Positions 55,732 through 62,450 of a stretch of 64,000 nt of DNA are shown here, piece by piece. The notes below the pieces were generated by a model. The model saw only the letters and a program-made list of their open reading frames with translations. It had not been told where the DNA came from and made no database searches. The translations under genes and the position numbers were made by a program. Source of the DNA: Galdieria sulphuraria (lineage: Eukaryota > Rhodophyta > Bangiophyceae > Galdieriales > Galdieriaceae); contig NW_005178417.1 of the NCBI RefSeq assembly GCF_000341285.1, positions 27,854 to 91,853 of the forward strand, written 5' to 3'. Position 1 is the stretch's first letter; every line of letters begins with the position of its first letter.

Positions 55732-56976
55732 CTATTTGCCAAAGAATTCATGCAAGACCTTAACTTGACGATCGTCACTGGTGTATCCCAGATAATCTAA
55801 ACCATAGGAGGCCTCAATAGTCTTTAGCAAGTTGTAATGATTATATTTTCCATAAGTCACAATATGATATGGGTTTTCTCTGGATATTACAATCAGTGGA
55901 ACCTTTCCACCTCCATAATAGCCATCAATGAGGAAGGAATGATCCGCAAAAGAAAAATTAGTGGAATAAATGTAGGCTGTATCTGGTCCTCCTTCAGTAA
56001 AGACATTTAACTCTTCATTATAATTGGCTTCATCCCAAGTGACAATTATGACCGAGTTCCCTGTCCAACTAGGAGAGTTTACAATTTTGGGAATCCACTC
56101 TCGAAGAAATTCATCTCCTTTTTTCCATAAATTATTGATATTGACACAATTCTTAGAAGTATTTTTGGTATTATAGCAATATGCCAGTTTCTTAGGAGTG
56201 TTGGGATATTCAGTTACTGCTGGACACACATCGGAGCCTCCATGCATATCGTGACAGATGTCAGGGGAAATAAAAACGTATTCTGGAACATTGCAGGAAT
56301 ACAAATCTTGTTCTAGCTCTTCTAAAGGTGGAATATTTGCAGCTCTTACTGGATCTTGGAAAATTTGAGGATAAAATAAGAACGGCACATGCTCTTGAAG
56401 CCAAACAAAGCTACTATTTTGAGGATATGAAGAGCTGCCTTTGTAGCCTGCATAAGGAATAGATTGTGCATAGTTCTTCCAGCCAAGTCCTTTCTCTTCC
56501 AATTTGTCTGCAATACAAGTATGGTCAAAGACTTGCTTTGTTGAATCATTATGACTCCACCAGTTGCTTCCAGAAGTAAGAGCAATATAATTAGGCAGGC
56601 TAGTATGAGTAATTCCATAATATTCTGCTGCGAAACCAAAATGTTGTATCAGCAAATTGATAAATGGCATATTTTCATTTCCAAGTATCACGTCATTTCC
56701 GCTGTTTTCCATCATGAAGATGAACACATGATCGAATGGCCTGACACCTTCCTTACCATGAATATAAGAGAGGTTCTTTTTAGGACATTGAAAGCTACTT
56801 GCAGAGAATATTCCCATCTTTTGTAAAACTTCCGTTCCATTCTCAATAGGAGCTTTTGAGGGTGCCGGGGATAGTACAGTGGTTTGCTGTGTTGAATTGA
56901 AGCTGCCGAATGCATTTTGGTAAAAATTCACTTGAAAAAGAAGTAAGACAGCCAATATTGATGTAAATGATTTCAT
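55732..56976 (-). CDS. Secreted phosphoesterase / acid phosphatase (PF04185 type)
   Basis: Predicted extracellular phosphomonoesterase of the alkaline-phosphatase superfamily branch that includes acid phosphatase A and phospholipase C-like enzymes. Single exon, 414 residues. A signal peptide is clear at 1-24 (MKSFTSILAVLLLFQVNFYQ). A Ser/Pro/Thr linker precedes the catalytic domain with FDHVFIFMMENSGND (metal and nucleophile region), ITHTSLPNYIALTSGS, VFISPDICHDMHGG, VIIVTWDEANYNEE (metal ligands) and VPLIVIS. Seven or so N-glycosylation sequons suit secretion. Use in phosphate scavenging from acid hot-spring water is inference. No introns are present. Confidence 0.85.
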   Translation of the reverse strand: MKSFTSILAVLLLFQVNFYQNAFGSFNSTQQTTVLSPAPSKAPIENGTEVLQKMGIFSASSFQCPKKNLSYIHGKEGVRPFDHVFIFMMENSGNDVILGNENMPFINLLIQHFGFAAEYYGITHTSLPNYIALTSGSNWWSHNDSTKQVFDHTCIADKLEEKGLGWKNYAQSIPYAGYKGSSSYPQNSSFVWLQEHVPFLFYPQIFQDPVRAANIPPLEELEQDLYSCNVPEYVFISPDICHDMHGGSDVCPAVTEYPNTPKKLAYCYNTKNTSKNCVNINNLWKKGDEFLREWIPKIVNSPSWTGNSVIIVTWDEANYNEELNVFTEGGPDTAYIYSTNFSFADHSFLIDGYYGGGKVPLIVISRENPYHIVTYGKYNHYNLLKTIEASYGLDYLGYTSDDRQVKVLHEFFGK

Positions 56977-57654: not shown

Positions 57655-59778
57655 CTAAATATTCTTGAAACGAGATGAAACTATTTCTTGTAGTGTTGAA
57701 ATGCCAATATTTCTCGAATGCGGATTATCCACAGACTTGAAAGCGTTACTTACATTCAATAAAATATCTTTGGCAATAAAGTTTTCCACGTCGGCTTCAG
57801 AAAGAATAACCAATTCACAGTTGTGAGGAATCAAGAAATCTCCAACACCATCGCCAGATGAATAACAACGACAAGAATGATTCACGTCCTCAGATACATT
57901 TGTAGCCAACTTGGTACTCATAATAATCAACATACAATGCCATGTAGGATGACTAGTCAATACTTGATCATGCACTGGTTTCAAAAACTTGTGAGCTTCT
58001 TCCAAAATTTCATTCCATAGAATACCATTACGACTCCATCGGCCTTTACAAGCAATACTCACAATCATCAAGTTCTTCTCATTCGTTCTTCCATGCAACT
58101 TGAATAATATATCTGGAATATGGGATGTTGAATGAAATGGAATATATATCTTTTCAAATTCTAACATTTCTTCCACTATCCTTTCCCATTCATCATTGCT
58201 TCCAAATGTCATTCTCTCTGTTCCTGATACAGTTCTGGTATAATGTATAGATTTCATATAATAAGCAGCAGATTCGGAAGAAAATTGCAAACTCATTTCA
58301 TTCCAAACACGAGACAATTGACCAAGAGTAGAAAACATTGAGCTGTTTGTAGGATGCCGACAAAAATGTAAATAAAACAGTGTAGCAATAAGACCTTCCA
58401 AAATTCGACATTTCGACTCATAAAAGAATTCAACAGATTGAGACTTGAGAGTTTGTAAAAGTAACCATTCTAAACGATCATCCTTTAAGCCTTGGTCAAT
58501 ATATTCAATCAGTAACTTGGGAATCAACACTTCGTAGCGTTCGTTGCGGTCTGGTTCTATAACCAAACGACGATAGAGACACATATCTGTAACTAGATCA
58601 AACAAAAACACATCAGAATTTGAGCTTATTTGCACAGTTTCATCAAAATCAAATCGAATACGATACAAAGATAATAACGTAAGCATTCTTAACAAGCGCT
58701 TACGCTGCTCACTGAGACTTATCAGACGAGGTAAGAATGGCGCAACACAATAATTTGTTACTGAAAGATCATTCATTATGATCAAGAAGGTTTCCTTAGA
58801 TAATAAGAAATTGTTGTTGGATGATTTATACAGCAAAAGGTAACTGATTGCTCGAACAAGTAAACCAGGAACACCACCAGTCAATTCCAACAACAATTCT
58901 GCAAGTTCACTAGTTGAGAAGTCTTCGTGACAAAGAATTTCTGAAAACTTTGGGCTCCCAGTGAATAAAAAGGAAGAACTTTTCTCCAAATGTTCCACGA
59001 TACTATGGTTCTCAAGCGGCGCAAGAGGAATAAACACTAACTGAACCCTTGAGACTGAAGCTACGTAATTGTATATATTTGAATGCCCTCACTATTCCCA
59101 ACAACAATAAAAAACAAGTCGGGTTCTTCGCACAACTCACGAACAATACCGAGAAAGCCGTTGGACAATCCAAACACACCACTGTCAATCTGATCCAGCT
59201 CGAAAGAAAATTGCCAAAGCATCAAACACACCAAGTTCATCAAAAGCTACCAAAAGAAATTGATCGGAAGGAATGCCAAAAGTCTTCCGTAGCTCCGGAA
59301 TTAGAAAGCTTGGATAGGGAGGAATGTGTCTGTAGGCTTCGTCAGGCTTCATAAACGGTAGACCCATCTGATTACAAGCTGATCGGTACAATAAATAGTA
59401 GACTGCCCACTTTAGGTTGCGTTTTTCTTCGATGGGTCGAGTTGGCTTCATCTCCCTTAAATCCACATAAAGCAACGAAGCCCTTTTTAATTTCTCCAAG
59501 AAACCTCTTCGGTTGGCCTTCTCAGACTCACAAACGTAATCGAGACCTATCAGTGCACTTTCACCCATATTATTCACCAGTTCCAAGTAACTTTGTACGA
59601 ATTTTGTCTTCCCACTTCCGAAGAGGTGAGGACCAAAGGGTATGACTGGTTTGAAAGGGCGACCAAGTTTACGGAGAGTGTATAGCTGAAATAACTGCAG
59701 TGTTACTACGCCAACATCATTTTCTCGGTGTACTACAACCACGTCATATAAGGTTTCTGGTTCAAATTCACTAGACAT
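57655..59778 (-). pseudogene. Broken tandem copy of the large P-loop NTPase gene
   Basis: Paralogue of the intact gene at 60336-62450, aligned over its full length. From ATG 59778 it encodes an N-terminus with Walker A GSGKTKF, the conserved ASLLYVDLRE, SACNQMGLPFMK and Walker B FLLVAFDELGVFD. The frame then breaks near 59210 by one extra base relative to the paralogue. A second break near 59055 (two extra bases or one missing) follows the sequence DLFFIVVGNSEG. A long third frame (57655-59037) holds the rest, including the GGVPGLL motif and the C-terminal IPDILFKL ... IACKGRW block. No intron fits either break. It is probably a recently inactivated copy, though two sequencing errors would look the same. 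Confidence 0.75.
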
Positions 59779-60335: not shown

Positions 60336-62450
60336 CTATTGCCAACTTAAGAAACTGTTACGGATTCTACCAAGTAAATCTAATCCAAAATCCCAAAAAG
60401 TAGGATTACGAGAAACATGAAATGCTCTTTCAAGTCCACTCAATATTTCTTCGTCAATCAGCATTTGGACATCTCTTTCACAAAGAATAACAAGTTCACA
60501 ATTATCAGGTACTTTGAAAGAATCATTTCCAATAAACATTCCACTGGAGTAACAACGACTCTGACTACCCAACTCATTAGAAACATTCAATGATAACTTT
60601 GTACTAACGATAATAAGCATACAATGATGATAATCCATTGCACTGGATAAGACTTGATCATAAACAGGATCTAAAAATTTCTTGGCTTCATCTATAATAT
60701 CTGACCAGCCAATTCCTTCCGACCTCCAACGTCCTTTACATGCAACTCCAACAGTAAGAACTTTGGGTTCCACAGGAGATTGTAATTTGAATATAATATC
60801 AGGACTATAAGAAGTAGCGTCCAAAAGAATGTAAATAGTCTCTAAATAAAGTGTCTCTCGAATAATGTTATTCCATTCAGCATTGGCAAAAGTTCTTCGA
60901 CTCTTGTTCGATTCACTTCTTGTTTCTCTAGAACTAACAACAGACTTCATATAGTGAATAGGTGATATTGTACTGATTGGAAGTTTCATTTGTTTCCATA
61001 TCGGAGACAACTGACACAACAAATCCCTCAACTCATTTCGATTCTTTGAAGACAACATCAAAACTAGTCGTAAAGCAACAATTCCTTCAAATACACGACA
61101 CTTTGAATAGAAGAAACAATCTACTGGTTCGACATCAAGTGATCCAAGAAGTATCTTTTCCAAAGAAGAGATAGAAGGGTCGTTCTTGAAGATTACAACA
61201 AATACTTTCGGAATCAGGACTTGAAAAGTATTCTCGTCAATAGGATATCGATATAATCCCATCTCAGTGACGGCATCATATAAAAAGGACTCCGAGGTCA
61301 ATCTATCATCTACTTTAGACGGTATACGATAAAGAGCCATCATCAAAAGTAAATCAAAAACACTTCTTCTATCTTCGTCCAAAATCAATATTCGTTCCAC
61401 AAATGGTTCAGCACAAATTCTTCGGAAATCATAGTCATTCATACAAGTCAAACATTCTTCTTTCGATATAAAAGGCTGATTTCTTGCTACTATATAATTC
61501 AAAAGCATATTTACTGCACGAGTCAACAAACCAGGAACTCCACCTGTACATTCCAATAATGAGTCTGCCAATTCATTTACTGAAAATGAAGAACTACATA
61601 AGACATTACAAACCGGAACTTGAGTAGGTGTCTTTAGAAGACTCTTTTCAAGGAACTCAACGATACTGGAAGCGTCCAAAGGTGATAAAGAAATAAAATG
61701 TAGTATGACTTTTGATACAGAAGAGACATAATTCTTAATACTTAAACCCTTGCTCTTCCCAACAACAATAAAAAACAAGTCGGGTTCTTTGCACAATTGA
61801 CTAATGATACCGAAAAAGTCATTGTAAGGTCGAACCACACCTTTGTCATTCTTCTCCAGTTCAAACAAAGTTCCCTTTGTATCAAACACACCAACTTCGT
61901 CAATTGCCAACAAAAGAAATTGATCGGAAGGAATGCCCAAAATCGAACGAAGCTCTCCAACTAAAAAACAGGGACAGGGAGGAATGTGTCTATAGACTTC
62001 ATCAGCCTTCATAAACGGTAGACCCATCTGATTACAAGCTGATCCGAACAATAAATAGTAGACTGCCCACTCCAGGTTGCGAAAAAACTCTATCGGGACT
62101 GTGGGCTCCAACCCCCTCAAATCCACATAAAGCAATGAAGCCCTCTTCAAATTCTCCAAAAAGGCTCTCCTCAAAGGGTCCGAAGCAAACGTCGACAGAA
62201 AAGTTTCACCAAACCTTTGCACCAACTCCAAATAGGTTCGGGCAAAGGTCGTTTTGCCCGAGCCAAAGAGATGGGGGGCAAATGGTATGGTCAAGCGATA
62301 GTTGCAACTACTCGTTACACCCCTGAGTTGTTCTCTGTTGCTATGAAGATCATACAGTTCTTCTGTCACTCGAAAAACATCTCTTTCACGATCTACCACA
62401 ACAGACTTAAACTTGTCCACAGCTTCCCACTTTTCATCCAAACTCGCCAT
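60336..62450 (-). CDS. Large P-loop NTPase of unknown function, intact tandem copy
   Basis: Single exon, 704 residues from the first in-frame ATG. Walker A HLFGSGKTTF is at about 60-69 and Walker B FLLLAIDEVGVFD at 178-190. DLFFIVVGKSKG near 224 has the hydrophobic-strand look of sensor 1. A GGVPGLLTRAV motif at 303-313 resembles the GGxPRxL segment of STAND and RHS/Crinkler-type NTPases. The middle (350-500) is helical. The C-terminal domain has SPDIIFKL (550-555) and VLTVGVACKGRW (564-575), spaced like a PD-(D/E)xK nuclease fold, but the acidic residue before the Lys is replaced (ACK). I know no named family for the whole. Archaeal-type ATPase families are expanded in Galdieria; membership there is untested. 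Confidence 0.7.
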   Translation of the reverse strand: MASLDEKWEAVDKFKSVVVDRERDVFRVTEELYDLHSNREQLRGVTSSCNYRLTIPFAPHLFGSGKTTFARTYLELVQRFGETFLSTFASDPLRRAFLENLKRASLLYVDLRGLEPTVPIEFFRNLEWAVYYLLFGSACNQMGLPFMKADEVYRHIPPCPCFLVGELRSILGIPSDQFLLLAIDEVGVFDTKGTLFELEKNDKGVVRPYNDFFGIISQLCKEPDLFFIVVGKSKGLSIKNYVSSVSKVILHFISLSPLDASSIVEFLEKSLLKTPTQVPVCNVLCSSSFSVNELADSLLECTGGVPGLLTRAVNMLLNYIVARNQPFISKEECLTCMNDYDFRRICAEPFVERILILDEDRRSVFDLLLMMALYRIPSKVDDRLTSESFLYDAVTEMGLYRYPIDENTFQVLIPKVFVVIFKNDPSISSLEKILLGSLDVEPVDCFFYSKCRVFEGIVALRLVLMLSSKNRNELRDLLCQLSPIWKQMKLPISTISPIHYMKSVVSSRETRSESNKSRRTFANAEWNNIIRETLYLETIYILLDATSYSPDIIFKLQSPVEPKVLTVGVACKGRWRSEGIGWSDIIDEAKKFLDPVYDQVLSSAMDYHHCMLIIVSTKLSLNVSNELGSQSRCYSSGMFIGNDSFKVPDNCELVILCERDVQMLIDEEILSGLERAFHVSRNPTFWDFGLDLLGRIRNSFLSWQ

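Follow-up and report, generated by a model that had tools for sequence, protein, structure and literature searches.

The window analysed here, a stretch of 64,000 nucleotides from the genome of Galdieria sulphuraria, a red alga of hot and acid habitats, contains an open reading frame of 704 codons (ATG to stop) at positions 60336-62450 on the minus strand. The frame stays open upstream and would give 719 residues if begun at TTG. The right end of the window is the end of contig C59 (91,853 bases), 1,550 bases away from the gene; inspection by eye of the final 1.1 kb revealed no obvious telomere repeat. The reading frame is real and not due to chance, because there are at least 68 matches in the same genome and purifying selection among the frames of its line. 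Its protein is 94% identical over 100% of its length to P0003, named archaeal ATPase, and the gene is a member of the named 'archaeal (STAND) ATPase' family of Galdieria, in which we distinguish two lines, A and B. An earlier note on this DNA had regarded the protein as unnamed and undescribed; however, this is the family treated as 'archaeal ATPase' in passages of PMC6629376 and PMC9812998. Absent from the literature searched are a likely nuclease-like tail and an exchange of cassettes; the family itself is known yet unexplained. Conservation was evaluated on 87 proteins of 660-740 residues, taken from 121 family proteins; the length filter drops shorter models, some of them without a P-loop (P0028, P0121). 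The features of the locus are as follows.

60336-62450, minus strand: whole open reading frame, 704 residues, line A of the family (reading frame and homology)
62250-62270, minus strand: Walker A, residues 61-67 (LFGSGKT; residues 63-67 in 87/87)
61932-62054, minus strand: cassette 1, residues 133-173, exchangeable, between beta2 and Walker B, types I-IV; here a diverged type I
61896-61916, minus strand: Walker B, residues 179-185 (LLAIDE; motif and conservation)
61836-61886, minus strand: cassette 2, residues 189-205, exchangeable, just past Walker B, types DTK and DES; here DTK
61524-61544, minus strand: GGVPGLL lid motif, residues 303-309
61185-61376, minus strand: predicted winged-helix domain, residues 359-422 (predicted secondary structure; 2qen alignment)
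60456-60875, minus strand: predicted restriction-endonuclease-like core, residues 526-665 (structure prediction and fold search)
60798-60803, minus strand: PD of the putative active site, residues 550-551 (conservation)
60735-60743, minus strand: ACK, residues 570-572, Lys conserved, Ala in place of the acid (conservation)
60687-60689, minus strand: Glu588, candidate relocated catalytic acid with a putative role (85/87, two gaps)
57658-59778, minus strand: tandem line-B paralogue, broken (stops and frame change)

The alignment of the 87 proteins reveals that residues ~128-180 occur in four main kinds and residues 187-207 in two, whatever the remainder of the gene is like; per-residue identity narrows the cassette limits to 133-173 and 189-205. 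Types were assigned by short sequence patterns chosen after viewing the alignment, by which a cassette-1 label could be given to 80 of the 87 proteins and a cassette-2 label to 78; the window gene, with its diverged type I, carries no cassette-1 label in the tree test described below. At the nucleotide level, the frame set comprises 24 open frames of at least 560 residues from 50 loci (16 A, 8 B), including five A frames (564-630 residues) and two B frames (597 and 634 residues) that are shorter than the full protein. One locus, L041 (G000:C77), is a hybrid: its best match is to line B, yet it is 59% identical to the line-A window gene, and it has long identical runs in common with several A genes.

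A-A pairs with unlike cassette-1 types share 41% amino acid identity in residues 128-176 and 92-95% past residue 207. A-B pairs of like type are 94% identical in residues 128-176 (88% at fourfold sites) and, past residue 300, 35-50% (22-42% at fourfold sites). Among frames of at least 660 residues, with L041 removed, the 10 pairs give 93% (fourfold 85%) in the cassette versus 35-50% (23-40%) beyond. For cassette 2, A-B pairs are 95% identical when of the same type and 30% when of different types. These figures are to be read with some caution: the two lines are 64-67% identical in residues 15-105 and 85-87% around 208-240 whatever the cassette type, and therefore the exchange extends past the cassettes; the shorter stretch 106-123 varies as well. 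The longest identical run of an A-B pair falls within codons 100-250 in 102 of 128 pairs (94 of 112 without L041). The two longest runs both involve the hybrid, i.e. 172 nucleotides in codons 55-112 and 170 nucleotides in codons 124-180 (L013 on C76 versus L041 on C77); without it, the best are 113 nucleotides (codons 167-204 and 196-233) and 98 nucleotides (codons 124-156, both type II). The segments on either side of Walker B pass from locus to locus and from one line to the other, for which ectopic gene conversion is the simplest explanation.

A quick tree of the backbone (residues 213-704) has weak support at 29 of 84 inner branches. On it, the cassette-1 type changes 44 times, as against 42.5 +/- 2.3 in 200 label shuffles, and species 4 times. 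On the cassette tree (81 rows), whose 52 columns leave 34 of 64 inner branches open, 3 changes of type suffice, which is as few as four types allow; A/B changes 18 times and species 7 times. In G. sulphuraria as well as in G. partita, each of the types I-IV is found on both lines. The picture is less clear in G. phlegrea, where one copy groups with type II, one sits next to type III, and two copies that the patterns label type I sit next to type IV on long branches. Since in the first two species each line carries all four types, these probably predate the split of G. sulphuraria and G. partita, the alternative being exchange between species; each backbone line is homogenised within a species. 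The survival of the types in both species despite exchange through the segment suggests that selection retains all four, although neutral persistence across dozens of loci would be an alternative. In line A, the pooled ratio of nonsynonymous to synonymous substitution rates (dN/dS) is 0.24-0.34 in the backbone regions and 0.44 and 0.52 in the cassettes; the median for residues 208-704 is 0.28 (120 pairs), and it is likewise 0.28 for the 11 A frames of at least 660 residues (55 pairs, range 0.16-0.37). Line-A backbones are under purifying selection. For line B, dN/dS in the regions 301-520 is 0.79-0.91, on few changes.

The earlier note had started from a 704-residue frame with the motifs Walker A, Walker B, GGVPGLL and PD...ACK. 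All of them are present, Walker A reading FGSGKT and Walker B LLAIDE, and all are conserved: GSGKT occurs in all 87 proteins, D184 in 86 and E185 in 85. A Pfam scan at E <= 1 returned ATPase_2 alone (E 0.0026; 18 bits against a gathering threshold of 33.2), a weak match that recurs in 19 of 37 members (best 2.5e-4). The predicted structure contains the nucleoside triphosphatase (NTPase) and winged-helix fold of ATPase_2: residues 11-423 of the model align structurally to 2qen, the best VIA match is an archaeal ATPase, and the best structural matches include Cdc6/Orc1, ORC and TnsC. The N-terminal part is predicted to be a STAND/Cdc6-like NTPase followed by a winged helix. Its closest-system candidates are the archaeal Walker ATPases 2qen (P. 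abyssi) and 2fna (Sso1545), which we take to belong to Pfam ATPase_2; by sequence, no homologue was found in archaea (limited sensitivity). In the predicted structure, the connection from the second strand to the Walker B strand holds cassette 1, and cassette 2 follows directly after Walker B. Because connections at these two positions carry substrate- or DNA-contacting loops in AAA+ proteins, a recognition role may be proposed for the cassettes.

The C-terminal core is likely restriction-endonuclease-like. In the full model, its secondary structure follows the alpha-beta-beta-beta-alpha-beta order, as in PD-(D/E)XK nucleases; in a short model, the first strand is unformed. A Foldseek search with the core yielded 12 best rows that are all restriction-endonuclease-like, each row being weak by itself; the weak matches include Bse634I, SgrAI and Avs3 (8dgc). 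Conservation is high for P550 (86 of 87), D551 and K572 (85 each), E588 (85, two gaps), and E652 and D660 (86 each), and the spacing PD-(x18)-ACK is kept in the family. Residue 570, which is the acid two before Lys in PD-(D/E)XK nucleases, is Ala in 84 of 87 proteins, as had been seen in this copy; since the canonical acid is absent, standard PD-(D/E)XK membership fails on this feature. In the Cfr10I/Bse634I group, the catalytic acid is relocated to the next helix. Glu588 lies 16 residues past K572, and it is possible that it could stand in for the missing acid in the same manner. The alanine had been taken as a sign of either an inactive fold used for binding or a different domain; it is conserved, but inactivity is not forced by it, given a Glu588 present in 85 of 87 proteins.

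The count of paralogues, also proposed earlier, gives dozens of copies in a family that recombines. Within the same genome, at least 68 matches were obtained (63 of 167 candidates scored), which is a lower bound; among the 31 rows spanning at least 630 residues, 11 contain an internal stop and 20 none. In a protein database of 5.8 billion entries (7,994 candidates scored), there are 137 matches at E <= 0.01, and the best 120 of these all belong to Galdieria sulphuraria, G. partita or G. phlegrea. An N-terminal profile built from eight sequences (7,999 candidates scored; proteins longer than ~690 residues are beyond its length limit) gave 84 matches at E <= 1, 83 from Galdieria and one labelled Pseudomonas syringae. 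The latter, P0143, is a 265-residue partial protein on a 795-base contig, 73% identical to a G. partita member, and is probably a contamination by, or a mislabelling of, Galdieria-like sequence. Scans of genomes and viral contigs confirmed zero relatives. Hence, within the limited sensitivity of the protein, profile, genome and viral scans, no convincing relative outside Galdieria was found, and none was confirmed or listed from prokaryotes besides P0143.

Genome layout was analysed for 60 of the 68 rows, after dropping eight pieces, of which three (233-235 residues) continue neighbouring rows and five are 55-56 residues long. Five rows lie on contigs below 30 kb and seven on contigs of undefined extent; of the 48 on long contigs of known extent, 46 are within 60 kb of a contig end, and all 46 are transcribed inward, away from the nearest end. 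As they are spread over 34 ends of 26 contigs, these are not 46 independent cases. The interior of C1, a 466-kb contig, holds two copies (G000:C1:182713-184704 and 190052-191899), possibly the trace of a chromosome end that was fused or misjoined. Lines A and B often stand in tandem with A closer to the end, e.g. on C59, C51, C5, C13, C11 and C25; neighbouring gene numbers and a shared contig suggest such tandems in G. partita too. In summary, dozens of copies lie close to contig ends and read inward, many of them with A followed by B in tandem. The tandem duplication claimed for the window is real in that the paralogue exists, but the two copies are just 45-47% identical and the line-B copy is broken (three TGA, one TAG, and a frame change near residue 190-238).

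Two neighbours deserve mention. An open reading frame of 414 residues at 55732-56976 on the minus strand is presumably secreted and phosphoesterase-like, from a look at its sequence. L051 (G000:C59:27064-27615), some 240 bases outside the left edge of the window, has a sub-threshold ATPase_2 match (30.2 bits, E 2.1e-6) stronger than that of the 704-residue gene, and may be an intron-split true ATPase_2 gene.

The 'archaeal (STAND) ATPases' of Galdieria were reportedly recognised as a subtelomeric family by Schonknecht in 2013. According to passages of PMC6629376, strain 074W has 211 of them in three orthogroups, among which the present family falls, of unknown function and disputed origin, with no matches beyond their own species; archaeal transfer and a link to temperature are both doubted there, and Appendix 2 reports, as unpublished data of the author, that they adjoin every telomere. 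A passage of PMC9812998 describes archaeal-derived ATPases as highly duplicated in subtelomeres. Names, contigs and chromosome-end location match our gene, but these passages do not include the restriction-endonuclease-like tail, the A/B tandem or the cassette exchange; neither the tail nor the exchange of two segments flanking Walker B was found in the literature searched. In part of PMC6652019, a green lichen alga is credited with 26 archaeal ATPase-like proteins, placed in one tree with 12 Galdieria proteins.

We interpret the family, with a probability of about 0.4, as one that serves conflict or defence, is switched by nucleotide and directed at nucleic acid, and has recognition cassettes used in combination. 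The exchanged segments would be recognition surfaces on the NTPase; ligand binding could drive nucleotide exchange or assembly, which would then release or position the C-terminal domain on nucleic acid, and selection would keep the cassette set diverse, as in defence, self/non-self or conflict systems. More tentatively, it may be a chromosome-end repertoire of STAND-type NTPase-nucleases whose small set of ancient, trans-species 4 x 2 cassettes, reshuffled by ectopic gene conversion between two lines, serves combinatorial intracellular recognition in defence or in mating-type/self recognition. A selfish or passenger subtelomeric family, spread and homogenised by chromosome-end recombination with the types as leftover polymorphism devoid of any recognition role, would fit the contig-end location, the stops in 11 of 31 long rows, the homogeneity (accounted for by conversion), the lack of a cassette dN/dS above 1 and the line-B values of 0.79-0.91 in regions 301-520, albeit from few changes. 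We nevertheless think it rather doubtful, because the line-A dN/dS of 0.28 and the conserved Walker, PD and K residues imply that the protein is in use, and four types persist in two species despite exchange through the segment.

Less likely still is a role in chromosome-end maintenance. The protein would then be a DNA-loading NTPase of the Orc/Cdc6 or TnsC kind that acts in cis on subtelomeres, and its endonuclease-fold tail would bind DNA, possibly without cutting it. The Cdc6/Orc1, ORC and TnsC matches, the missing catalytic acid and the copies at every telomere (unpublished data in PMC6629376 Appendix 2) favour this role, but it leaves the exchanged cassettes and the apparent restriction to Galdieria unexplained. 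The literature proposes an ATPase acquired from archaea for heat adaptation and amplified by dosage; this is how genome papers and records name it, and the weak ATPase_2 matches and the archaeal best VIA match are in line with that name. We consider it improbable: no archaeal homologue emerged by sequence within the sensitivity stated above, the passages of PMC6629376 doubt both of its premises, and dosage predicts uniform copies rather than retained cassette types. Given the nuclease-like tail and the exchangeable segments, the 'heat-adaptation ATPase' can give way to a hypothesis open to testing, a recombining system of recognition or conflict, for which D551, K572, E588 and the cassettes are precise targets for tests of function. 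The title of PMC13353863 presents the algal class of Galdieria as genetically tractable.

Two further groups of proteins bear comparison. Like the Galdieria family by prediction, the Avs/NLR STAND immune proteins join a STAND NTPase to a restriction-endonuclease-like domain, the match to Avs3 (8dgc) being weak. The nuclease domain of Avs3 is Cap4-type, and Avs proteins have the opposite domain order and a repeat sensor region. They thus differ from the Galdieria family, which has no such sensor, and they belong to another domain of life. The second group comprises the Crinkler-RHS-type (CR) proteins, to which the earlier note had likened the gene. The arrangement it described stands in the NTPase, the winged-helix middle and the predicted core with PD and K placed as expected, but not in RHS/Crinkler membership: its suggested STAND and RHS/CRN profile check, run with Pfam, returned the sub-threshold ATPase_2, whereas none of the 37 members matched the RHSP or Crinkler models at E <= 1 (HMMER filters drop most weak matches). 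For lack of such a match, we state that the Galdieria family works like, and not that it is, CR. In trypanosomes, RHS genes are subtelomeric, with genes mixed with pseudogenes (a passage of PMC6967402), and the Galdieria family resembles them in its location and in its mixture of intact and broken copies. Furthermore, the order of NTPase, helix-turn-helix and restriction endonuclease domains given for CR proteins in part of a review (PMC5289972) is by prediction that of the Galdieria family too, with the last domain likely.
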